From Deltaproteobacteria bacterium (GTDB taxonomy: Bacteria; Desulfobacterota; GWC2-55-46), in the NCBI GenBank assembly GCA_016234935.1, contig JACRNL010000005.1:62001-126000 (forward strand): DNA of 64,000 nucleotides, read 5' to 3'. The notes under the pieces were generated by a model, which made no database searches, had not been told where the DNA came from, and saw nothing but the letters and a program-made list of their open reading frames with translations. This document shows positions 13,436-62,712 of this stretch, piece by piece. Each line of letters starts with the position of its first letter. The first letter of the stretch is position 1. The translations under genes and the position numbers were made by a program.

Positions 13436-13462
13436 CCCCCGCTTCAAGCACGCGAGGGCAAG
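13436..13462 (-). repeat. Family A 27-bp hairpin (intergenic)
   Basis: Inverse orientation: CCCCCGC, TTCAAGCAC, GCGAGGGCAAG. Lies between the dehydrogenase and epimerase genes. Confidence 0.75.
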
Positions 13463-32829: not shown

Positions 32830-33629
32830 CAGAAGGCATGATTGACATACACTGCCACATACTCCCCGGCATTGACGACGGCCCGTCCACGATGGAAGAG
32901 TCCGTCGGGATGTGCCGCATCGCGGCCGCCGACGGCATCAAGACAATAGTCGCCACGCCTCACTTTAACCACTCTCTGCGCCTTGTTCATGCCACCGGCA
33001 TATGCCGCCTCGTCCGCGAACTGAACCGTCATTTAACCGACGCGGCCATCCCCCTGACGGTATTGCCGGGCGCCGAGGCGCCGGTTGTCCCTGAGCTGCC
33101 GGAATACCTGGCAAAGGGAGAGGTGCTGACGATAAACGAGTCCAAAAGGTATCTACTCGTCGAATTTCACCCTCAGACCATGCCGCTGAACTGGGATAAG
33201 TTTTTCCTTTCGCTTATGGAAAAAGCCGTCGTTCCCGTTATCGCGCACCCTGAAAGGAACGAATGGTTCAGCCGCAATATTGCCGCCCTTTACGACGCGG
33301 TGAAAAGCGGCGTGCTGGTGCAGATAACCGCCATGAGCATTACCGGACAGTTCGGCGAGGAGGTCAGGGCATTTTCCTCCCGTCTGCTCGAACATAACCT
33401 GGTTCACACAATCGCGACCGACGCTCATTCCGCGTCGCACAGGCCGCCCATCCTGTCCGCCGCCGTCAAAGCCGCATCGGAGATCATCGGCCGGGAGCGC
33501 GCCAGGGAGCTTGTCGGCAAAATACCACACGCCATCACCGAAGGAGCGCCGCTATCCATTCCTGAGCCGGTTAAAGCGCAGATGGAAACAGCCGCGGAAA
33601 AGAAATGGGCGCGCCGGCTCTTCCACTAA
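32826..33629 (+). CDS. CpsB/YwqE-type PHP-domain tyrosine-protein phosphatase
   Basis: 267 aa. Metal-binding PHP motifs: DIHCHILPGIDDG, ATPHFNH, PVIAHPERNEW and ATDAHS. This manganese-dependent family dephosphorylates the BY-kinase tail in capsule systems. It is commonest in Gram-positives but also occurs in exopolysaccharide loci of other phyla. It overlaps the kinase by 4 bp (ATGA), fitting a kinase-phosphatase pair. A start 12 nt downstream (MIDIHCH) is possible. Confidence 0.93.
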   Translation: MTEGMIDIHCHILPGIDDGPSTMEESVGMCRIAAADGIKTIVATPHFNHSLRLVHATGICRLVRELNRHLTDAAIPLTVLPGAEAPVVPELPEYLAKGEVLTINESKRYLLVEFHPQTMPLNWDKFFLSLMEKAVVPVIAHPERNEWFSRNIAALYDAVKSGVLVQITAMSITGQFGEEVRAFSSRLLEHNLVHTIATDAHSASHRPPILSAAVKAASEIIGRERARELVGKIPHAITEGAPLSIPEPVKAQMETAAEKKWARRLFH

Positions 33630-35956
33630 AAGAGAATTTTCCCTGCCCGGGCGCGCGCCTTGAGCTCATAATAGAAAGAGGGCTGCAGGCCCTTTTAATC
33701 CTGACGCCGCTTGCCTTCGGGACGGTTCATAGATGGTCGCAATCGCTGATGGAAGCCGCCGCCTTTACCCTCCTTGGCGCAATGCTTCTAAAAAGGTCCC
33801 TGTGCGGCGGTTCATTAAGACTGCCCAAAAAACTCCTGTTCATCCCTCTTGCGCTTTTTGCGCTACTTGCGGTCATTCAGATACTGCCGCTGCCTGAAAG
33901 CCTCCTCGCATACATATCCCCCGAAACGGCGCAATTTCACCGGACATTTGCCGGCGCAAACTTATCCGGCCCGATGACCATCAGCGTAAATCCCGGGGCC
34001 ACGATTGAAGAACTCCTGAAGTTTCTCGCCTACGCGGCCGTTTTTTTTGTAACGATAGATTACTGCGAGACAACAGAGCACATAAACAGGCTTCTGCGCA
34101 CCGTGGTCTGCATGGGCGCCGGGCTTGTCGTCCTTGCCGTGGCGCAGAAGATGACGTGGAACGGAAGGCTCTACTGGTTTTATCCGCTCGGCAAAAACGT
34201 GCCGCCAAACCATAATATTTGGGGCCCTTACATAAACCGCAACCACTTCGCGGGCTACATGGAGCTGGCCGTTCCCATCGCGCTCGGCTGCGCGATATAC
34301 ATGCTTTCCACGATCAACGCCCTTAGCGGAAGTTCATTCCGGAAGAATATCGCAAGGGTGCTCAGCTCAAGAAGGTTTTTTCAGGCGGGAATATTTTTCC
34401 TGGCGGCGCTGATTATGGAAGCCGCTCTTTTTATGACCCTGTCAAGGGGCGGGTTTATCGGCTCCGCGGTTTCCATTGCAATCTTTGGCGCGCTTGCCTA
34501 TGCGAGAAGATCGCTCAGAAAGGCCCTGTGGATAATCGCGGCGCCTGCCGCCGTGATTATCATGATAATCTTCATCGGACTTTTAGCGGACACCGAGCGC
34601 CGTTTCATGACTGCGGCCCCGGATCAGTTCGCAAGGCTCGACATCTGGATAGACTCGCTGAATATCATAAAGGACTATCCTTTTTTCGGGATGGGGCTTG
34701 GCGCCTTTAAAAACGCCTTTATGAGCTATCAGACCAAGTGGTCCCTCATATACTTCGAACACGCCGAGAGCGACTACGTGGAGCTGGTCACGGAGACAGG
34801 CTTGGTGGGCCTGCTGATTGCGGCCTTGATGACGGCCGCGTTCTTTTATCCGGTCTTGTCCGCATGGAGACGGCAATCCGGCTGGTACGCCAAGTGCATC
34901 GGGGCAGGCGGTCTTTCGGCCCTGTCCGCCCTGTTCGTGCACGGCTTTACCGATTTTAACCTGCGCATCCCCGCCAACGCGCTTACCTTCACGGTAATCG
35001 CGGCGGCCACATATGCCGCCGTCCTGACCCTCGCTTCAGGCACGCGAGGGCAGGCGGCTGCGCGGCACAAAGTCCCGGCCGCGACGCCCGCTCCGGCCGG
35101 AATGCCCGCCAAGAAGCCCATTGGCCGGCGGCGCGCGGCGCTGACGGCGTTGACAGTGATATGCACCCTGGGGCTTGTCTACCTGCCTGTTAAGGGACTC
35201 CTTGCCGAACATTACCACGCAAAGGCTTACAACATACTCGACGACAAGACGACCGGACAAATGGACATAAAGGGCGTCTCAAAGGAGACTTTGCCGGATT
35301 ATGCCGCCGCGATACGCAGCCTTGAAACCGCGATAGCGCTGTCGCCGTCAAGGGCAGACTATTATAAAGACCTCTCAAGCCTTCAAGCCATGCTCGCCGC
35401 CCAAGCGGACGCGATGGAATCCGCAGGCGCGCGGATTGACGGCGCCGGCCTGTCGCGGCCGGACTCTTATAAGAAGGCCATCGCTTACATGAAAGAGGCC
35501 ATACGCATGGAGCCTTCTAACCCGGACTATCACTTTTCACTTGGCAAGCTCTACGCCGAAACCGGGTCATCCGCAGACCTTTCAGACGGGGAATTCAAGG
35601 CGGCCCTTGCCGCGTATCCCGTAAACGCCCCTCTGAGGTTTGCCGCGGCCATGCATTATCTTCTCGGCAACAGGCCCGAAGACGCCATAAAAGAAGCGCG
35701 GATATTGGCTGAAATAGACGACAGTTACGTTATAGGCGATCCCGAGAAAAGGGCCTTTGAGATGGAGACAAACGCGCTCGGATACCGCGCAAGGCTTTCC
35801 CAAAGCTTTCTCGCGATGGCCTTTGAAATCGTCTGGAGGGCTTCAAATAAGGATTTAACCGTTGTCAAGGCTATTATCCCCGCCCCTGACACGCACCCTC
35901 AGGCTGACGACGTCTTTCAGATTTTTCTGGAGGCAAAGGGTCTGGACGATAGATAA
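33605..35956 (+). CDS. Wzy_C (O-antigen ligase-family) membrane protein with C-terminal TPR domain
   Basis: 783 aa. About 12 hydrophobic segments in residues 15-540, the periplasmic-loop motifs N-R-N-H-F-A-G-Y and L-S-R-G-G-F, and FFGMGLGAFKNAF. A TPR-like C-terminal domain (~560-780) includes KEAIRMEPSNPDYHFSLGKL. Such ligases attach glycans to lipids or proteins, or polymerise. It is the second Wzy-like protein in the locus. Residues ~475-483 (LASGTRGQ), in the linker between membrane and TPR domains, come from an in-frame family-A hairpin. Start overlaps the phosphatase. Confidence 0.85.
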   Translation: MGAPALPLKENFPCPGARLELIIERGLQALLILTPLAFGTVHRWSQSLMEAAAFTLLGAMLLKRSLCGGSLRLPKKLLFIPLALFALLAVIQILPLPESLLAYISPETAQFHRTFAGANLSGPMTISVNPGATIEELLKFLAYAAVFFVTIDYCETTEHINRLLRTVVCMGAGLVVLAVAQKMTWNGRLYWFYPLGKNVPPNHNIWGPYINRNHFAGYMELAVPIALGCAIYMLSTINALSGSSFRKNIARVLSSRRFFQAGIFFLAALIMEAALFMTLSRGGFIGSAVSIAIFGALAYARRSLRKALWIIAAPAAVIIMIIFIGLLADTERRFMTAAPDQFARLDIWIDSLNIIKDYPFFGMGLGAFKNAFMSYQTKWSLIYFEHAESDYVELVTETGLVGLLIAALMTAAFFYPVLSAWRRQSGWYAKCIGAGGLSALSALFVHGFTDFNLRIPANALTFTVIAAATYAAVLTLASGTRGQAAARHKVPAATPAPAGMPAKKPIGRRRAALTALTVICTLGLVYLPVKGLLAEHYHAKAYNILDDKTTGQMDIKGVSKETLPDYAAAIRSLETAIALSPSRADYYKDLSSLQAMLAAQADAMESAGARIDGAGLSRPDSYKKAIAYMKEAIRMEPSNPDYHFSLGKLYAETGSSADLSDGEFKAALAAYPVNAPLRFAAAMHYLLGNRPEDAIKEARILAEIDDSYVIGDPEKRAFEMETNALGYRARLSQSFLAMAFEIVWRASNKDLTVVKAIIPAPDTHPQADDVFQIFLEAKGLDDR
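35028..35054 (-). repeat. Family A hairpin inside the Wzy-TPR gene
   Basis: CCCTCGC, TTCAGGCAC, GCGAGGGCAGG on the plus strand. Read in the gene as LASGTRGQA. 27 bp, frame kept. Confidence 0.85.
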
Positions 35957-35987: not shown

Positions 35988-36014
35988 CCTGCCCTCGCGT
36001 ATTTAAAGCGGGGG
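35988..36014 (+). repeat. Family A hairpin (intergenic)
   Basis: CCTGCCCTCGC, GTATTTAAA, GCGGGGG. Confidence 0.8.
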
Positions 36015-36051: not shown

Positions 36052-36156
36052 TAGTGCGAGGCTTCAGCCTCGCTGTTTTTGCCGCATCCTTGCTTGATTG
36101 CAACAAGCGAGACTAAAGGCCTGCCCTCGCATGTCTAAAGCGGGGGTCTCGCACTA
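36052..36156. repeat. Family E element, occupied copy
   Basis: Ends TAGTGCGAG / CTCGCACTA. Homologous to 37885-37960 but longer by 28 bp because of a family-A unit at 36119-36146. Confidence 0.85.
36120..36146 (+). repeat. Family A hairpin nested in family E
   Basis: Splits GAGACTAAAG from TCTCGCACTA; the unsplit sequence is at 37941-37960. Arms CCTGCCCTCGC and GCGGGGG. Confidence 0.92.
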
Positions 36157-37147: not shown

Positions 37148-37258
37148 TTGTCTGTCATCCCCGAGTGTCCCTATCGGGGATATGGTCTTGATTTTCAAAT
37201 TAGATGCTTTGATGCCCCTACTGGATTCCCGATAAAAGTCCTCGGGAATGACAGACAA
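37148..37258. repeat. Family D element, empty copy (111 bp)
   Basis: Outer inverted repeats TTGTCTGTCAT / ATGACAGACAA; inner CCCCGA...TATCGGGGA and CCCGATAAAAGTCCTCGGG. The uninterrupted relative of 42272-42386. Confidence 0.8.
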
Positions 37259-40145: not shown

Positions 40146-40793
40146 CTACTTGCTTCTGAACGTCTTATAAAACGCCGCGGTCTTTTCAAGCGCGTCGAGT
40201 TTCTTAAGGGCTTCGGCCAGACCTGCCTCAAGCTCCGGCCCGTTATCATGGCCGCTTCGAACCGATGAGTGTATATGCCGGACACTGCCGTCAAGGTCGT
40301 CAAGGCCCTGCTGAATGCCTGCAACTGACCTTTCCATCGCGGCGGTGAAATCGTTGAGGCGCCCGGAGAGGTCTTTAAGCTCGTCTGACTTTCTCAGGGT
40401 GAACCTGTATGTGAGGTCCCCGAAGGAAATGTGCTCAAGGCTCTTTTCAAAGCGGTGCAGCGGCCCGGCAAGCCTGTGCGATACGAGGATCATCATCACC
40501 GCGCCCGCCGCGGCCGTTATGCCGACGAGAACGATGTTTGAAAGGAGCAGGGCGGGAAGGAAGTAGTCTCCGGTACCGGACAGCACCAATTCGGAGCCGG
40601 AATAACCCACCGTAACGGTGCTTTTAGAGAGGTAAAGAAAAAGCCCCAGCGCAAGGACGGCCTCCACGGCGATGAGGATAAGGAATTTTATCGCGAAGTT
40701 CGCCTGAAAGCCCCGTTTTATGTAGACGGTCTTTCTCTTGTAGGGTTTCTTCTTGTCCTCGCGTGTTTTAAGCGGGGATTCGCTATTTTTCAT
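40146..40793 (-). CDS. HAMP-domain membrane protein
   Basis: 215 aa from the ATG at 40793 (AGGA at a suitable distance, inside the foldase 3' end). Two transmembrane helices (KFLILIAVEAVLALGLFLYL; LSNIVLVGITAAAGAVMMILV) around a small periplasmic part, then HAMP (SHRLAGPLHRFEKSLEHISFGDLTYRFTLRKSDELKDL) in part and a C-terminal coiled coil. No kinase or methyl-accepting hairpin follows, so it is a stand-alone HAMP signal relay or scaffold. The cytoplasmic N-terminus (ESPLKTREDKK) includes an in-frame family-A hairpin. Confidence 0.8.
   Translation of the reverse strand: MKNSESPLKTREDKKKPYKRKTVYIKRGFQANFAIKFLILIAVEAVLALGLFLYLSKSTVTVGYSGSELVLSGTGDYFLPALLLSNIVLVGITAAAGAVMMILVSHRLAGPLHRFEKSLEHISFGDLTYRFTLRKSDELKDLSGRLNDFTAAMERSVAGIQQGLDDLDGSVRHIHSSVRSGHDNGPELEAGLAEALKKLDALEKTAAFYKTFRSK
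40752..40778 (+). repeat. Family A hairpin inside the HAMP gene
   Basis: CTTGTCCTCGC, GTGTTTTAA, GCGGGGA. The gene reads the opposite strand as SPLKTREDK. The loop differs from the usual TCTAAA so that the TAG expected in this frame becomes AAA. Confidence 0.8.
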
Positions 40794-41634
40794 CGTCAAT
40801 CCTGTTAAGCGCTCCGAGGTCTATCTTTATCCGGGCCGCTCTTCTCATGCCCCGCAGCCACTCCTGCAGCGCCTCGTCCTTTTTCCGCTCGAATACGGCC
40901 TTTTTTATCCTGCCGGCAACCTTTTCATACGGCGGCCGGGCGGTCTTTTCCTTCTTTATCACCTGCACCACCGAGTAGCCGTCTTCATCCTTGAAATACC
41001 TTATCTCTCCGGGGGACAGGTCAAAGACGATGTTGACAATCCCTTGAAGGGGCTCGGCCCCCTCAGGGGGCTGAGCCCCTTCAAGGGGTCCGGCGGACGG
41101 CATATCTTCAAAAAGCACCGGGCCTATGACCTCATACCTGCCGTTACCCGTTCCCGCTGCCATGAACCTTGCGGCCTCGCCCGCCCTTTCAAGGCTGGGC
41201 GCCTTTGCCAGCTTGAAGGTAAGCCTGTAGTTCATGCGGCCGTAATAAGCCATTGCCTCCGCGTCGGAAACAGCGAGTCTGCCCGACCATTCTTTTGTTT
41301 TTGCGTCTATCAGCTGGCGTATGAGGGTCTGCTCCCAGAAGACCTTTATGGTCTCTATGAAGTTCTCATCCTGGGTCATGCCCCTTTCCACCGCCTCCTG
41401 TATCATGAGCCTTCTGTCAATAATCCTGCCGAGCTGATCTTCAAGGGCCTTGGGGTTGCCCCTGAACGTGGGGTCTCGCCGGGAAATCAGCGCTATCTCC
41501 TTTTTAAAGTCCTTCATCAGAATAGGCCTGTCGTTGACCGAACCAACGGACTTTTCCTTCGAGGAAGGCCCGCACGAAGACAGGCTAATCGTAAAAAAGA
41601 GAAGCGCAGTGGCTATAAAGGGGTTTTTAAGCAT
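40783..41634 (-). CDS. SurA/PpiC-type peptidyl-prolyl isomerase lipoprotein
   Basis: 283 aa. Lipoprotein signal FFTISLSSCGP (lipobox L-S-S-C). SurA_N-like helical part (INDRP-type start VGSVNDRPILMKDFKKEIAL, RIIDRRLMIQEAVERGMTQDE), then a rotamase-type domain broken at residues ~183-199 by GPLEGAQPPEGAEPLQG, which is a 49-bp family-B array read in frame. C-terminal helical end with VAGRIKKAVFE. A periplasmic folding factor. The start codon lies in the first of three 40-bp tandem repeats. It overlaps the HAMP gene by 11 bp. Confidence 0.85.
   Translation of the reverse strand: MLKNPFIATALLFFTISLSSCGPSSKEKSVGSVNDRPILMKDFKKEIALISRRDPTFRGNPKALEDQLGRIIDRRLMIQEAVERGMTQDENFIETIKVFWEQTLIRQLIDAKTKEWSGRLAVSDAEAMAYYGRMNYRLTFKLAKAPSLERAGEAARFMAAGTGNGRYEVIGPVLFEDMPSAGPLEGAQPPEGAEPLQGIVNIVFDLSPGEIRYFKDEDGYSVVQVIKKEKTARPPYEKVAGRIKKAVFERKKDEALQEWLRGMRRAARIKIDLGALNRIDDEK
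41041..41089. repeat. Family B array inside the foldase gene
   Basis: CCCTTGAAGGGG, CTCGG, CCCCCTCAGGGGG, CTGAG, CCCCTTCAAGGGG: a nested palindrome encoding about 16 residues. Confidence 0.85.
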
Positions 41635-41726
41635 GACTGTTCAGGTGCGGCTGTAAAAAGGGTTTTTTAAGCATGACTGTCAAGGTGCGGCTGTAAAAAG
41701 GGTTTTTTAAGCATGACTGTTCAGGT
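41626..41726. repeat. 40-bp tandem repeat covering the foldase start codon
   Basis: GCATGACTGT recurs at 41631, 41671 and 41711, i.e. a 40-bp period. Each unit holds, on the minus strand, ATGCTTAAAAA and its upstream sequence, so the start region of the lipoprotein gene exists three times. Confidence 0.85.
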
Positions 41727-41836
41727 AAGAAAAGTATAACGCAGTATTTTCAAGGCGCAAGCCCGGCTTTGCCGGCAGGGCGGATATAGGGCTGGGACGG
41801 AAATGTTTTCATGATGACCAACGGGGGGCTGAAAAA

Positions 41837-42271: not shown

Positions 42272-42386
42272 GTCATCCCCGAATACTTCTATCGGGGATC
42301 TATTCTTTAGATGCTTTGATGCCCCTACCGGATTTTCGATAAAAGTCCTCCCCCGCTTAAAACGCGCGAGGGGGGGCGGGAATGAC
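42272..42386. repeat. Family D element, occupied copy
   Basis: GTCATCCCCGA...GGGAATGAC with TTTAGATGCTTTGATGCCCC inside, as in 37148-37258, but with 27 extra bp (42351-42377) after AAAAGTCCTC. Confidence 0.85.
42351..42377 (-). repeat. Family A hairpin nested in family D
   Basis: CCCCGC, TTAAAACGC, GCGAGGGGGGGC, placed exactly between GTCCTC and GGGAATGAC, which are adjacent at 37238-37252. Confidence 0.88.
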
Positions 42387-42447
42387 AATATTTCAGGCTT
42401 CAGCCGTGCGCAGCGCCTTTTTTTTCAAAAAAGTTTCTCTCAAGTCT

Positions 42448-51313: not shown

Positions 51314-54300
51314 CTACTCCGCATCAGCCTCGGCCTGCTCAAGCGTCCTGATGTAAATGTCCCTTACCTTATCGGAAAAATTTTTATAATCTTCAAGAAG
51401 CCTTCCGGCGGCGTCTTCGCCGGCGTATCCGGCCCTCTTCGCAAGGGACGATATCCCGGCCGGATCCGTGTACAGATAGCCTTCCGGCCTATCATGCACT
51501 ATCCTGAGCCTTGTTTCCAGAAGTCTGTAAAAAACGTACGCGTCCTTCAAGACCGCGTAGTCTCCGGGGCTTATTATCCCCTCCCCGCGCAGCCTTGCGA
51601 GGGCCTTTGACGTATATTGCGTGCGCAGGCCCGCGCGGCGCCCGTGCAAAAGCTGAAGGGCCTGCGTAAGGAACTCGATATCAACGGCGGCGCCCCTGCC
51701 TGTTTTTACATTATATCTGGTCCTGTCCTCTTTGGCAATTTCAGTCTCCATCCTTGAACGGATGCGGAGCATCTCCCTGACATCGTCTTTTCTCAGAGGA
51801 CGCGCATAGAGCGCTTCCCCAAGCTCCTTCAAGACCTCCTCCCCGAAGGCGGCGTCCCCGGCTACGCTTCGCGCCTTTATAAGGGCCTGCCTTTCCCAGA
51901 TTGACGTGCCGCCCATGTGGTATTTAATCAAGGCCGGACGCGCAGCCACGAGCGGCCCGGATGAACCTGAAGGCCGGAGGCGCGTGTCCACGCTGAACAA
52001 AGAGCCCTCCTTCGTGCGGAGCGTCAGGACGCTTATTATCCTCTGGCCGAGCTTGACGAAGAATTCGTGGCTTGAAATGGGCCTGGCACCGTCCGTCCTG
52101 CTGTCAGCGTCCCCGCCGGAATACACGAAGATAACGTCAAGGTCTGATCCATAAATCAGCTCCCTGCCGCCGAGCTTGCCCATGCCTATGACGGCAAACC
52201 TCGCGTCCGCCGGAGGCGGCAGGCCGTAGGTCTTTTTAAGCTCGCCGAGGGCAAGCTCATAGGCGGCCTCCAGCGCGGCCTCGGCCAGAAAGGTCATCTG
52301 CATGGAGACCTGATGGGCCGTAAGGGAGCCGAATACGTCGTTAACGCCTATCCTCAAGACCTCCTGATTCCTGAGCTCGCGCATGGAGCCGAGTTTTTCC
52401 TCATAGTCCTTTGCAGCGCTGTTTGCCTCGTCAAGGAACTCGCGGAAGAACGCCGCCTTTGTCTTATACGGCACGCTAAGCTCCTTTGAAAGGAGCATAT
52501 CGAGGCTTTCCGGACGCTCGATAATGCCCCTTGAAAGAAACGCGCTTGAGCCGAAAAGCGTTATGAGCTTATCGAGCGCCGCAGGGTTCTCGCCAAGCAG
52601 GGAGTAAAACAAAGACCGCGGCCCAACGGCGGAGATGAACCTCTCTATGTGCGCAAGCGCCATGTCCGGGTCGGGAGACGCCGCGGCGCGGGCAATGAAT
52701 GCCGGCAGGAGCCTTTCAAGCCGCATCTGCCCCTTTGAGCCGATGCGCATACGGGCCGGCGCGTCTTTAAGCAGGCAGAGGTTCTTATAGGCCGCGGACG
52801 CGTCCTTGAACCCAAGCGCCTGAAGGCGGGCATTTGCGTCATCTTCCGTAATGCCTGCCCCCGCGTGTCTAAAGCGGGGGTCGGAAAAAAGTATCCGTAT
52901 CTCATCTGGAACTTCAGGCGGCCCTTCTTCGGATTTGTAAAACAGCGACCTGTAGACCTCGTGCACGGCGCCGGTCATGCCGTCGTACTCCTCTTGAAAG
53001 GCGTCCACTGCCGATTTGCCGGGCGCGTCCTTAAACCCCATCATGCGCGCAAGGCGGCGAAGCTCCGCGGCGTGCTTTGGCACTGCCTGCGACTGAGCGC
53101 CCTCGACTATCTGTATCCTGTGCTCAAGGCGTCTTAAAAAGACGTAACCGTCGCGGAAGGTGGCGGCAGACAAATGATTAAGCAGCCCCTTTTCCCTTAA
53201 CTTCTCTATGGCTTGCAGGGTGTTTTTATCCCTCACCCCCGCGTCTTTGCCGCCGTGTATGAGCTGAAGGGCCTGGCAGAAGAACTCTATCTCCCGTATG
53301 CCGCCCCTGCCGAGCTTCACGTCAACGGCATCCGTGCTTCTCCTTAAAAGGCCGACGTCTATCTTCTCCTTCATGGCTTTTATCTCTTCGATAGCCGTAA
53401 AGTCCAGATGCCGCCTGAAGACAAAGGGGCGTATCATCTCAAGGAAATCCGCGCCCGTTTTTTTATCGCCGGCGACGGGCCTTGCCTTTATCATGGCCGC
53501 CCTCTCCCAGGGCTGGCCCCAGGACTCGTAGTAAAGCTCCGCGCTGTAAATGGAGCTTGCCATCTCCCCGCCCCTGCCCTCCGGACGCAGGTCAAGGTCA
53601 CACCTAAAGACAAAGCCGTCTTCGGTGACCGCCGAGATGAGCTTGGTTATCAAGACCGACGCCCTGACAAAAAATGCGTGGTTGCTTATGCGGGAAGAAT
53701 CCTTGCCGTCAACGCCGGCTGTCTCGCCGTTTGAAGATGAATAGACAAAGATGACGTCGATATCCGATGAAAAGTTCAGTTCCCTTCCGCCGAGCTTGCC
53801 CATGCCGATGACGGCCAGTCCCGCCTCCTGGCCGGTCCCGGCGTCCACGGGCGCGCCGCAGCTCTTCTTAAGGTGTTCAATGGAAAAGGCGAGCGCGGCG
53901 TCAAGCGCGGCGGATGCCAGATCAGAGAGCTCCGCCGTCACCTCCTCCACGGGGGAAAGGTTTAGAAGGTCCCTGCTCCCGATGCGCAGGAACTCCCTTT
54001 GCTTGAAGAGCCGCAGCGCCCTTGCCATGCCGTCGAAGGTTTCGACGCCTGTTCTGTTTTTTTCAAGCTCGGATAAAAAGAGCGCGGCGTCTTTGGTCTC
54101 AAAAAGGCCGCGCCCCATGAAAAGCCATTCGAAGTTGGCAGGGTCTTTTGCAAGGATGTTTGAGAGAAATGGCGACGAACCGGCAATGGTTATCAGCCGC
54201 TGAAGGTTTTCCGGCGCTTCCAGAAAATGCCCGAGCGTCTCTTCGGGCAGATCTTTTACGATGTTCTCAAGGTTATTGAGCGCGCCGTCCGGCGAAGGGG

Positions 54301-54475
54301 CGAGCGAGGCAAGGCCTGCGACCGAGCCGATATGCGGCGCAAAGGGTTTTATCCCGGAGATGATCCCGATGTTTTTAAGCGCGGCCTTAGTGTCTGAAAA
54401 ACCGAGGGAGCGCAGCATTTCCTCGGATGCAGCCGCATCTGCCGGAGGCCCGGCCCCATTTGGCGGATTATCCAT
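51314..54475 (-). CDS. glnE: Bifunctional glutamine synthetase adenylyltransferase/deadenylase
   Basis: 1053 aa, full length. Two nucleotidyltransferase domains, each with the sequence IGMGKLGGREL and an active-site acid pair (FSSDIDVIFVYSS near 240; YGSDLDVIFVYSG near 775). The N-terminal domain removes AMP, the C-terminal adds AMP to glutamine synthetase in response to PII. Residues ~532-541 (DPRFRHAGAG) between the two halves derive from an in-frame family-A hairpin at 52854-52880. Co-directional with the DUF4388 gene 3 bp downstream. Confidence 0.96.
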   Translation of the reverse strand: MDNPPNGAGPPADAAASEEMLRSLGFSDTKAALKNIGIISGIKPFAPHIGSVAGLASLAPSPDGALNNLENIVKDLPEETLGHFLEAPENLQRLITIAGSSPFLSNILAKDPANFEWLFMGRGLFETKDAALFLSELEKNRTGVETFDGMARALRLFKQREFLRIGSRDLLNLSPVEEVTAELSDLASAALDAALAFSIEHLKKSCGAPVDAGTGQEAGLAVIGMGKLGGRELNFSSDIDVIFVYSSSNGETAGVDGKDSSRISNHAFFVRASVLITKLISAVTEDGFVFRCDLDLRPEGRGGEMASSIYSAELYYESWGQPWERAAMIKARPVAGDKKTGADFLEMIRPFVFRRHLDFTAIEEIKAMKEKIDVGLLRRSTDAVDVKLGRGGIREIEFFCQALQLIHGGKDAGVRDKNTLQAIEKLREKGLLNHLSAATFRDGYVFLRRLEHRIQIVEGAQSQAVPKHAAELRRLARMMGFKDAPGKSAVDAFQEEYDGMTGAVHEVYRSLFYKSEEGPPEVPDEIRILFSDPRFRHAGAGITEDDANARLQALGFKDASAAYKNLCLLKDAPARMRIGSKGQMRLERLLPAFIARAAASPDPDMALAHIERFISAVGPRSLFYSLLGENPAALDKLITLFGSSAFLSRGIIERPESLDMLLSKELSVPYKTKAAFFREFLDEANSAAKDYEEKLGSMRELRNQEVLRIGVNDVFGSLTAHQVSMQMTFLAEAALEAAYELALGELKKTYGLPPPADARFAVIGMGKLGGRELIYGSDLDVIFVYSGGDADSRTDGARPISSHEFFVKLGQRIISVLTLRTKEGSLFSVDTRLRPSGSSGPLVAARPALIKYHMGGTSIWERQALIKARSVAGDAAFGEEVLKELGEALYARPLRKDDVREMLRIRSRMETEIAKEDRTRYNVKTGRGAAVDIEFLTQALQLLHGRRAGLRTQYTSKALARLRGEGIISPGDYAVLKDAYVFYRLLETRLRIVHDRPEGYLYTDPAGISSLAKRAGYAGEDAAGRLLEDYKNFSDKVRDIYIRTLEQAEADAE
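52854..52880 (+). repeat. Family A hairpin inside glnE
   Basis: CCTGCCCCCGC, GTGTCTAAA, GCGGGGG. The gene reads the opposite strand as PRFRHAGAG. Confidence 0.88.
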
Positions 54476-59422: not shown

Positions 59423-59449
59423 CCTGCCCTCGCGTGTCTGAAGCGGGGG
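59423..59449 (+). repeat. Family A hairpin upstream of the Cys-rich gene
   Basis: CCTGCCCTCGC, GTGTCTGAA, GCGGGGG. Confidence 0.85.
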
Positions 59450-60092: not shown

Positions 60093-60463
60093 CCCGTAGC
60101 AGGGCGTCACGCCCCGGCTCATCCGAAAACTTTCCATCACAACCACCTATGCCAAAAAACGAAACAAATAACGAAACCAAGGAAAACGTAAAAAAGGCCG
60201 CGGCAGCCTCCGGGGAGCCGCCTCAATTAGACTTTACCTCCTTCATACTCTCCCTTTCCACCTCCGTGCTTATGAACCTCGGCGTCATCGAAAACCCGGT
60301 GACAAAAATGAAGGAGCGGGAACCGCTCGTGGCAAGACAGACCATTGACCTCATAACGCTTTTAAAGGAAAAGACAAAAGGCAACCTCACCGAAGAAGAG
60401 GCGCGGCTCGTTGACGACGTGCTTCATGAACTGCATCTCTGGTATGTCAAGGAGGCACAGTAA
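60089..60463 (+). CDS. DUF1844-domain protein
   Basis: 124 aa if started in the ATGA overlap with hsp20; 104 aa from the ATG at 60149 (MPKNETNNETKEN), where family similarity probably begins. Core: LDFTSFILSLSTSVLMNLGV, PLVARQTIDLITLLKEKTKGNLTEEE and a final helix. Small cytoplasmic family of unknown function, common near housekeeping genes in Desulfobacterota and Nitrospirota. The extra N-terminal segment is Ser/Pro/Arg-rich and may be untranslated. Confidence 0.82.
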   Translation: MTRSRASRPGSSENFPSQPPMPKNETNNETKENVKKAAAASGEPPQLDFTSFILSLSTSVLMNLGVIENPVTKMKEREPLVARQTIDLITLLKEKTKGNLTEEEARLVDDVLHELHLWYVKEAQ

Positions 60464-60467
60464 CCGA

Positions 60468-62024
60468 ATGGAACCCAAAAAAACCGGCTCCTGCCCTCGC
60501 GTGTCTAAAGCGGGGGTTGGCGTAAAAACAGTCATAATAATCGCCGTCATTTCCGTCCTGGCGGGGATATTATTAACCGCGAAGCTCGACATGACAAACC
60601 CCGGCGCGGCGCAGAGTTTCTGGAAGGAATCAGGGGAAGGCGTCCCGCCCCAGGCAAGCATCAGGCCGGACAGCTTCGTTGATATCGCGAAAAGGCTTTC
60701 CCCCTCGGTCGTGAACATCTCCACGACCCAGACAATAAAAGAGCGTCCCATATTCCCGTTCCCTGAATTCAGAGGCCCGTTCGGCGGGCAGGATGACTTC
60801 TTCGGGGACGACTTCAATAAATTTTTCAATAACGACCAGCAACCGCTGCCGCCCAGAGAGATGAAGCGGCAGTCCCTCGGCTCCGGCTTCATCATCAACA
60901 AGGACGGCTACATCCTCACGAACTTCCACGTCATAGAGAACGCCACCGAGATAATGGTCACGCTCTCCGAGCATAAAAAGGACTACAGGGCAAAGGTCGT
61001 CGGCCAGGACCCGAAGCTCGACATCGCGCTTATAAAGATAAACGCGGACGCCGACCTGCCGGCCGTTACCATCGGCAACTCCGATGATCTTCTGATAGGC
61101 GAGTGGGTCGTCGCCATAGGCAACCCATTCGGCCTCGGCGGCACCGTGACGGCCGGCATAGTCAGCCAGAAGGGGCGCGTCATAGGCGCGGGGCCGTACG
61201 ACAACTTCATACAGACGGACGCGTCCATAAACCCCGGCAACTCCGGCGGCCCGCTCTTTAACATGCGCGGACAGGTCGTGGGGATAAACACCGCGATAGT
61301 AGCCGGCGGCCAGGGCATCGGCTTTGCCACGCCGATAAACATGGTCAAAGACGTCCTCGTCCAGCTCAAGGAAAAGGGCAGGATAACGCGCGGCTGGATA
61401 GGCGTGGGCATACAGGAACTTACGCCGGAGCTTGCAAAATCGTTCGGCCTCAAGGATGCGGAAGGAGCCCTGATATCATCCGTCAATCCGGGAGACCCTG
61501 CGGACGCGGCCGGCCTCAAGCAGGGCGACATAATCATATCCTTTGACAACAAAAAGATAACCGAGATGAACGACCTGCCCCGCATAGTGGCCTCCACGGC
61601 GCCGGGCAAGGGCGTGCCGGTGGTTATCCTGCGCGACGGGCAGGAAAAGACCATCACCGTGAAGGTCGGCGCCAAAAGCGATGAAGAGGCCTTTGCCGAG
61701 GCGGATACGCAATCTGAAAAAGAGCCCAAGCCGGATAAAAGGCTTGGCATATCCGTTCAGTCCATAACGCAGGAAATGGCCAAGAAGTTGGGCCTGCCGG
61801 ACACCGAAGGGGTCGTCATTATGAGCGTCAAGCCGGACAGCCCTGCCGGCCTTGCCACCCTGCGGCGCGGGGACGTCATAAAAGAGGTAAACAGAAGGCC
61901 CGTCAGGAACCTGTCCGAATACAAAAAGGCCATGGCCGCGTTGAATAAAAAAGAGAGCGTCCTGCTGCTCATAAAAAGAGGCAACAGCACCATATATGTG
62001 ATACTGACGGTCAAAGAAAAGTAA
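60468..62024 (+). CDS. degP: Do/DegP-family periplasmic serine protease
   Basis: 518 aa from the ATG at 60468, downstream of AAGGAGG (an upstream in-frame ATG at 60411 lies inside DUF1844). Membrane anchor ~20-37 (TVIIIAVISVLAGILLTA). Trypsin-like domain with triad H154 (TNFHVIE), D185 (KLDIALIKI) and S259 (NPGNSGGPLF), and two PDZ domains (~300-390, ~425-515). It degrades or refolds misfolded envelope proteins. Residues ~8-16 (SCPRVSKAG), before the anchor, are encoded by a family-A hairpin. Confidence 0.95.
   Translation: MEPKKTGSCPRVSKAGVGVKTVIIIAVISVLAGILLTAKLDMTNPGAAQSFWKESGEGVPPQASIRPDSFVDIAKRLSPSVVNISTTQTIKERPIFPFPEFRGPFGGQDDFFGDDFNKFFNNDQQPLPPREMKRQSLGSGFIINKDGYILTNFHVIENATEIMVTLSEHKKDYRAKVVGQDPKLDIALIKINADADLPAVTIGNSDDLLIGEWVVAIGNPFGLGGTVTAGIVSQKGRVIGAGPYDNFIQTDASINPGNSGGPLFNMRGQVVGINTAIVAGGQGIGFATPINMVKDVLVQLKEKGRITRGWIGVGIQELTPELAKSFGLKDAEGALISSVNPGDPADAAGLKQGDIIISFDNKKITEMNDLPRIVASTAPGKGVPVVILRDGQEKTITVKVGAKSDEEAFAEADTQSEKEPKPDKRLGISVQSITQEMAKKLGLPDTEGVVIMSVKPDSPAGLATLRRGDVIKEVNRRPVRNLSEYKKAMAALNKKESVLLLIKRGNSTIYVILTVKEK
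60490..60516 (+). repeat. Family A hairpin inside degP
   Basis: CCTGCCCTCGC, GTGTCTAAA, GCGGGGG, the consensus form. Read as CPRVSKAG. Confidence 0.9.
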
Positions 62025-62043: not shown

Positions 62044-62712
62044 TTGGCAACTTACATTACGGCCCTGACCGGAGCCAGCGGGGCGGTCTACGGCATAAGG
62101 CTCATAAGAGAACTCCTGGCAAGGGGAGATGACGTTGAACTGCTCATCTCCCCTTCCGGTTTTCTGCTCCTTGAGGAGGAACTCGGCCTTTACCTTGAAA
62201 AGCCTGCCCCCGCACGTCTGAAGCGGGGGGGCGATCCTCGGCCTCGGCCTGAGATTGAAAAGGCAGTGCGCGCTTATCTGGAGCGCGCATACGGCGCAGA
62301 GACCAGGCTCAAAGGCTCTTTGCGCTTCACCCCGTCTGACGACATGACGTCAAGGCTTGCAAGCGGCGGCTGTCTCCCGGAGGTCAGGGCTATGATCGTT
62401 TGCCCCTGCTCAATGGGGACTCTGGCGCGCATAAGCGCAGGCATATCGGCAAGCCTCATCGAAAGGGCCGCGGATTGCATGCTCAAGGAGCGCTCCGCGC
62501 TTGTGCTCGTCCCGCGCGAAACGCCGCTCAGCTCGATTCACCTTGAAAATATGCTCAGGCTCTCGCGGGCGGGCGCGGTCATCCTGCCGGCCATGCCGGC
62601 CTTCTACACGCACCCGAAAACAACCGGCGACATGGCCGCATTCATCGCCGGAAAGATACTGGACAGCCTGAAGATAGAAAACAATCTCTATAACAGGTGG
62701 AAAAAGCGGTAA
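62044..62712 (+). CDS. ubiX: Flavin prenyltransferase UbiX
   Basis: 222 aa, TTG start with GGATGGA upstream. ITALTGASGAVYGIRLIREL (FMN site), CPCSMGTLARISAGIS, ERAADCMLKERSALVLVPRETPL and PAMPAFYTHP, the UbiX series. It makes the prenylated FMN used by UbiD decarboxylases. Typical UbiX is ~190-205 aa. The extra length sits at residues ~54-75 between L-Y-L-E-K and the next helix; nine of these residues (PAPARLKRG) are a family-A hairpin. No UbiD is in the window. Confidence 0.92.
   Translation: MATYITALTGASGAVYGIRLIRELLARGDDVELLISPSGFLLLEEELGLYLEKPAPARLKRGGDPRPRPEIEKAVRAYLERAYGAETRLKGSLRFTPSDDMTSRLASGGCLPEVRAMIVCPCSMGTLARISAGISASLIERAADCMLKERSALVLVPRETPLSSIHLENMLRLSRAGAVILPAMPAFYTHPKTTGDMAAFIAGKILDSLKIENNLYNRWKKR
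62203..62229 (+). repeat. Family A hairpin inside ubiX
   Basis: CCTGCCCCCGC, ACGTCTGAA, GCGGGGG. Read as PAPARLKRG. Confidence 0.9.

Follow-up and report, generated by a model that had tools for sequence, protein, structure and literature searches.

An apparently mobile 27-bp REP-like hairpin and its insertion into other hairpin repeats in a Deltaproteobacteria genome

The small dispersed repeats of cyanobacteria treated by Elhai in 2008 are reportedly mobile, about 20–27 bp long and accompanied by empty sites. The palindromic elements of Rickettsia, longer than the unit described below, are palindromic repeats lying in frame within functional genes, and the dRS3/NIME mosaics of Neisseria consist of inverted palindromes around a unique core. 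For REPINs, PMC3116915 presents the doublet as the mobile unit and regards singlets as immobile remnants. The CGTC-tagged REPs (Di Nocera 2013, PMC3733652) were described as having no dedicated transposase, with their means of movement posed as a question; the Rickettsia elements are mentioned there as well. The spread of REP-like repeats without an associated transposase is a question already stated in print (PMC3733652).

The locus considered here lies in a stretch of 64,000 nucleotides (the window) of contig JACRNL010000005.1 from a Deltaproteobacteria bacterium, in which a host repeat, family D, was found once empty and once occupied by a unit of family A (Table 1). In the empty copy, AAAAGTCCTC (37234–37243) abuts GGGAATGACA (37244–37253), whereas in the occupied copy these blocks (42341–42350 and 42378–42387) stand apart, with the insert CCCCGCTTAAAACGCGCGAGGGGGGGC (42351–42377) between them, a spacing of exactly 27 bp. 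Direct reading of both loci thus confirmed the 27 bp that the sequence-only reading had claimed between the two D blocks; its position for the occupied block was right, and its start for the empty block, 37231, was about 3 bases off. Because the last base of the insert and the base before the insert are both C, 42350–42376 is an equivalent placement, and it is the version in which the insert hairpin pairs; this copy carries a mutated tag, GGGG in place of CAGG. The host repeat common to both loci spans 79 query bases at 76% identity, with a 44-nt core at 93%. The insertion point was found at the 3' loop/stem border of the right-hand hairpin of the host, so that of the earlier statement that the site lies in the arm of a GC palindrome, the palindrome stood and a position deep in the arm did not; elsewhere the site falls in the loop. 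Family D was also observed partly in tandem, with copies of about 21–24 bp, at C8:25160–25266, and a separate 40-bp tandem repeat (2.8 copies) lies at 41614–41733 of the window, over the start of ORF 40783–41634.

Table 1. Coordinates in the window of the host repeats, the inserted unit and further family A copies.
Feature	Position	Strand	Remarks
Inserted family A unit, 27 bp	42350..42376 (equivalent 42351-42377)	+	arms CCCCCGC/GCGAGGG
Host family D repeat, occupied	42272..42386	+	without insert = 42272-42349 + 42377-42386
Host family D repeat, empty	37154..37252	+	inverted palindromes 37154-37181 and 37224-37252 around TTAGATGCTTTGATGCCCCTAC
Right-hand hairpin of empty D copy, insertion target	37224..37252	+	ATTCCCGA-TAAAAGTCC-TCGGGAAT + GAC, z -3.6
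Family A copy	13436..13462	+	outside ORFs >=100 aa
Family A copy	35028..35054	+	in 783-aa O-antigen-ligase-like ORF 33605-35956; +9 codons, TLASGTRGQ
Family A copy	35988..36014	-	flanks rejoin to palindrome TGCTCCCCC-GTCAA-GGGGGAGGA
Family A copy	36120..36146	-	flanks rejoin to palindrome GCGAGAC-CTTTA-GTCTCGC
Family A copy	40752..40778	-	start of ORF 40146-40799
Family A copy	52854..52880	-	in glnE-like ORF 51314-54475
Family A copy	59423..59449	-	
Family A copy	60490..60516	-	near start of ORF 60411-62024
Family A copy	62203..62229	-	in UbiX-like ORF 62044-62712

The family A unit of 27 bp was found to consist of a 23-nt hairpin and a 4-nt tag, YCCCCGC-9nt-GCGRGGR-CAGG/CATG, with a stem of 7 bp, a loop of 9 nt and an unpaired tag (CAGG, CATG or CAAG) at one end. 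The base before CCCC was counted into the unit on account of its pairing with base 22, as C:G in 57 of 58 A1 units and as T:A in 21 of 26 A2 units. The A1 tags (n = 58) were mostly CAGG (44), followed by CAAG (5) and CATG (2), and CATG was carried by 17 of the 26 A2 units. With up to 2 mismatches, the 22-nt core CCCCGCTTNARRCNYGCGRGGG matched 225 times in the genome of 2,152,354 bp (119 on the plus and 106 on the minus strand), against 0 matches for the backward-read control, which shows that the likeness is not one of chance. In a set of 99 distinct units, drawn from this genome and six others, Watson–Crick pairs filled 628 of the 693 pairing cells and G:T pairs 10; in 500 partner shuffles the Watson–Crick count averaged 543 and never exceeded 564. 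Copy-by-copy reading with flanks covered 101 copies at up to 3 mismatches in 815 kb (contigs C5 and C7 and the window), and 83 of them had no neighbouring copy within 200 bp. The orientation of A1 units relative to GC skew (26 plus, 32 minus) showed no strand bias and hence no support for lagging-strand insertion. Units combining the stem and loop of the P type with a tag of the A type (CCCCGATAGAAACATTCGAGGGCARGC) were observed at C15:29445, C15:35393, C5:45620, C5:237029 and C5:308472, such A/P hybrids being mostly nested in A loops.

The length of the unit was evaluated by a removal test on 140 copies, of family A or of the A/P hybrid type, from 879,586 bases of sequence. These bases amount to about 41% of the genome and comprise C5, C7, the window and seven extra pieces that had been chosen for D-like matches and not at random. 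From the first C of CCCC, L bases were removed (L = 20 to 59), and the joined flanks were scored against five hairpin consensus sequences in both orientations with up to 3 mismatches. A known host hairpin was restored in 22 of the 140 cases at L = 27, in 6 at L = 28 and in 2 or fewer at any other L, counts that include repeated composites. The restored hosts were A loops in both orientations (TTYARRC^AYGCG, GTGTC^TAAAGC), the A2 loop (AAAGC^CTGC) and the P and P2 hairpins; family A lies near the loop in five or more families of hairpins, its own included. The unrelated palindrome GTTCCCACGCTCCRGCGTGGGAAYG was found in 12 empty copies and in 4 occupied by 27, 27, 27 and 45 bp, the 45-bp insert being the 27-bp unit itself holding an 18-bp unit. 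The same insert length in unrelated repeats, as proposed earlier, was recovered in A, A2, P, P2 and GTTCCCACGCTCCRGCGTGGGAAYG hosts and in genes. No duplication was seen at the target beyond one ambiguous base. A C followed the unit in 46 of 58 A1 cases, and a weak preference for C was seen four bases upstream (35/58 A1, 19/26 A2). After removal of 27 bp, the junction fell in a palindrome loop (stem ≥ 7) or within 2 nt of one in 28 of 140 cases, compared with 9 of 140 for either control removal (37 or 47 bp) and with 164 of 3000 sites drawn at random; L = 22–30 scored alike (22–28/140), so that this test shows place and not length. Among 35 copies read in other genomes of the class, 3 (L176, L185, L203) were judged by eye to lie in loops of ...GAATGAC/GTATGAC-type palindromes. 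The unit is inserted whole, usually directly before C in the case of A1, in coding and intergenic DNA alike, with an excess at palindrome loops. Judged by these sequence comparisons, family A is almost certainly a mobile, REP-like hairpin of 27 bp; of the two forms proposed before, a mobile or a templated unit, the first is supported and the second is unnecessary for this family.

The direction of the change was considered next to the opposite possibility that family D originally carried the 27 bp and lost them in the empty copies, since one empty/occupied pair alone gives no direction. The copies of D are mostly empty: the empty host sequence AAAGTCCTCGGGAATGAC was found genome-wide in 5 exact copies and 2 with one mismatch, few copies being occupied, which is the reverse of the picture that the sequence-only reading had set against itself, with every D copy occupied save one bearing a deletion scar. 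For the D/P2-type hairpin, the 880 kb contained 6 copies interrupted at one common point by exactly 27 bp and 4 exact copies with no insert. The orthologous genes of other organisms also lack the unit. In NAD synthetase (C5:39267–41015), the unit adds PRFKHAGAC between ...DRKDAI and FNAAAL (DNA ...GCCAT|27 bp|CTTCAAC), and the 9 extra residues are absent, without a scar, from all 17 orthologues aligned out of 28 loci found, the named relatives being Deltaproteobacteria MAGs with identities of up to 61%; alignments of this protein with PDB entries were ambiguous, the best homologue having loop residues of its own at the site. In GlnD, a stretch of 45 bp, made up of the 27-bp and the 18-bp unit together, is missing from 13 of 13 relatives. 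In GlnE of the window, all 13 of the 13 relatives fall 8 residues short at the insert, a net difference of 8 and not 9 in a linker that varies. Weaker cases were the UbiX-like ORF, for which 18 of 18 relatives are shorter at an insert in a loop of variable length, and GH57, for which 10 of 11 are shorter and L135 has equal length with unrelated residues. Chorismate synthase (copy C7:308595) was discarded as proof, there being no clean 9-residue gap against solved structures and about 18 query residues unmatched. Because gene orthologues are without the unit and most D copies are empty, the change is an insertion, and an origin by deletion, which would further have to account for the unit in at least five unrelated hosts, was rejected as extremely improbable.

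The 27 bases amount to nine codons, and by reading of the consensus about 4 of the 6 frames are open, so that the unit can survive in genes. Inside ORFs, defined mechanically and uncurated, it is nevertheless under-represented: such ORFs take up 88% of the sequence but hold 39 of the 101 copies. This depletion and the conserved hairpin would suit a unit kept for a function, such as that of a transcription terminator or RNA-stability hairpin, with mobility only incidental. Loss of open frames suffices, however, to explain the depletion, the copies occur in both orientations and inside conserved enzymes, and Rfam gave 0 matches in the window, so that retention for function was considered quite unlikely.

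Nesting of the unit in its own kind was found in the A1-in-A2 composite (54 bp), which occurs at five loci with differing outer flanks and takes up 5 of the 6 copies of the exact A1 variant. Most simply, nesting happened once and the 54-bp whole moved afterwards; such movement would imply recognition of the ends and the tag and not of the loop; it is also possible that the composite was spread by gene conversion. The presence of these composites at several places with different flanks suggests that the end of the hairpin and the tag would be recognised, the loop being free to grow. Some nested cases may be copies of a single event. A further reading, by which the composites in general are mosaic duplicates, with one occupied D copy duplicated and at most one event in D itself, is favoured by the 90% identity over 77 bases of the occupied D copies at C9:104272 and C12:17776 and by the A2(A1) composite, which has clearly spread as a unit. 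The two D 27-mers nevertheless differ at 5 positions by reading, further occupied P2 hairpins hold still other A variants, and the remaining hosts would stay unexplained even if the proposal were right for D; it was judged rather unlikely.

A second unit, of 18 bp (NNNN-TTGAA-nnnn-TTCAA-NNNN), was observed in 162 copies at up to 2 mismatches in 880 kb (control 0); it is present in C5, in C7 (for example at C7:70542 inside GlnD) and in the window, and it also inserts exactly between the stem and the tag of family A. The four bases at its centre reverse-complement the four that precede it on the left: among single units, CCCT was found in 17 and CCCC in 0 cases after AGGG, and CCCC in 71 of 73 after GGGG (Fisher p 2e-16). 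From this correspondence the 18-bp unit gives the impression of being templated by its target or of having paired with it. It may tentatively be proposed that these are self-nesting mobile hairpins, in which single 27-nt hairpins enter the loops of other hairpins to give a larger mobile hairpin with unchanged ends, moved in trans by an enzyme that has repeats of another family as its own, or by no transposase, alongside an 18-bp unit whose core is complementary to its target. If true, repeat growth would have a new mode here, and the mobile unit would be close to the smallest size possible.

As to the mechanism, family A would move as a single-stranded hairpin and join single-stranded loop DNA, a loop-targeted route considered somewhat more likely than not. 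Cutting and joining would most likely be performed in trans by a Y1/HUH-type tyrosine transposase, either the RAYT of this genome or an enzyme since lost; a trans-acting Y1 enzyme is the best mechanistic guess, made by analogy with REPs. A profile search with PF01797 gave no match in the genome, and the more sensitive NF047646 gave one RAYT (C9:227954–228403; 96 bits against a cut-off of 80), for which reason the idea that the genome has no Y1 enzyme was dropped. PF01797 was also observed to miss, or barely score, many RAYTs above the NF047646 cut-off in genomes G003–G017 and others. The RAYT, the only one over the cut-off in the genome, lies in an ORF of 212 aa (C9:227822–228460, equal to L171:3823–4461) flanked by GTTCCCACGCTCCAGCGTGGGAATG and GACGCTCCAGCGTC/GACGCTGGAGCGTC, a repeat that differs from family A and is the palindrome invaded by it. 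The locus, with its inverted GACGCT..AGCGTC palindromes (GTTCCCACGCTCCAGC hairpin), has the look of an ordinary REPtron whose repeat family is itself one target of family A. The nearest family A copies lie about 1.2 kb upstream, past another gene; G006 has 37 family A-like copies by a loose pattern and no RAYT match, and no family A copy stands beside the RAYT locus of G003. That this RAYT is the enzyme moving family A appears doubtful.

A spread by copying during replication or recombination, through template switching, hairpin-primed synthesis or palindrome conversion and with no dedicated transposase, would agree with the many sites that are palindromes, where polymerases stall, with the occurrence of hybrids of families A and P (CCCCGATAGAAACATTCGAGGGCAGGC) and with the result that no transposase gene flanked by family A was found in the PF01797 and NF047646 searches or at the RAYT locus. 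The exact 27 bp recur, however, at sites without sequence shared with A (NAD synthetase, the GTTCCCACGC repeat), and 27 bp in unlike sites are not what would be expected of template switching from one homologous palindrome to another, which leaves copying an unlikely explanation. Taken as a whole, a non-autonomous 27-bp hairpin with a tag, inserted as a unit and moved in trans, is the best explanation and is considered likely. With many exact before-and-after sites, a unit of defined length (27 bp), a favoured target structure and one candidate enzyme, the genome makes the movement testable.

The 27-mer pattern (up to 2 mismatches) occurred in 19 of the 63 genomes of this class. Its distribution was sporadic and clade-linked: 208 matches in this genome, 0–2 in most others of its family, 13 in G003, 21 in G006 and 5–34 in two other families. 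Spread by viruses was rejected on 0 exact pattern matches in viral contigs, a narrow test. A full paper describing family A was not found in the open-access literature.

The small dispersed repeats of cyanobacteria are probably the closest kind to family A; they are set apart by another host phylum and another sequence. The Rickettsia elements are like family A in lying within genes and differ in being longer and of other sequence, and the plan of family D is that of the Neisseria dRS3/NIME mosaics. In its anatomy family A is REP-like, with a tag and a hairpin, high copy number and some copies in genes: it is a palindrome within the 20–40 bp of REPs in high copy (27 bp, 225 copies, pairing conserved), and it has an unpaired tag at one end. 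The GTAG or close tag of GTAG REPs was not found, the tag being CAGG/CATG (CCTG/CATG on the other strand), nor does family A flank a RAYT as a RAYT-cognate REP does. The features of CGTC REPs (CGTC/TGTC/CCTC tag, AT at the stem base, loop of 4–5 nt, stem of 8–9 bp) are absent from family A, and families P and P2 come closer to them, but with loops of about 9 nt. The inverted doublet that defines REPINs as mobile units was not seen, the inserts being single 27-bp units, and the ends shared with an autonomous element that mark IS200/IS605-type MITEs are lacking, with no PF01797 match and different RAYT ends. Elements of that type insert 3' of a fixed short motif and duplicate no target bases, beside which may be set, for family A, the single ambiguous base at the target, the C after most A1 units and the weak C upstream.

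Compared with the CGTC REPs (PMC3733652), family A likewise has a hairpin with an unpaired 4-nt tag, hundreds of copies, some copies inside genes and no flanked transposase gene; it differs in its tag (CCTG/CATG/CTTG), its 9-nt loop (4–5 nt in theirs), the lack of a stem-base AT, and the precise empty/occupied sites and insertion into hairpins reported here. Hairpins of family P in this genome (TGTC-AT-CCCCGA...TCGGGGAT) resemble those REPs. REPINs and GTAG REPs (PMC3116915, PMC2817692) are similarly small non-autonomous palindromes thought to be moved via a Y1 tyrosine transposase; family A differs from REPINs in that single units insert, there is no GTAG tag and the RAYT is flanked by another repeat. 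This single-unit insertion is at odds with the idea that doublets alone can move. The mitochondrial repetitive hairpin elements or GC clusters (PMC2800124) are comparable as tiny proliferating hairpins with side-by-side doubles and copies in genes, and differ in being mitochondrial. For IS elements such as IS1397 and ISPsy8 (PMC1525189), the target is likewise a bacterial REP palindrome with a fixed cut point, but there the guest is a whole IS and here it is the 27-bp palindrome itself. The nesting shows a possible origin of NIME/BIME-type mosaic repeats, and few mobile DNA units for which before-and-after sites are clear are as small as family A; if truly undescribed, it would be a clean model. 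Very small mobile palindromes are already known, and what appears new against them is family A and its targeting of loops.
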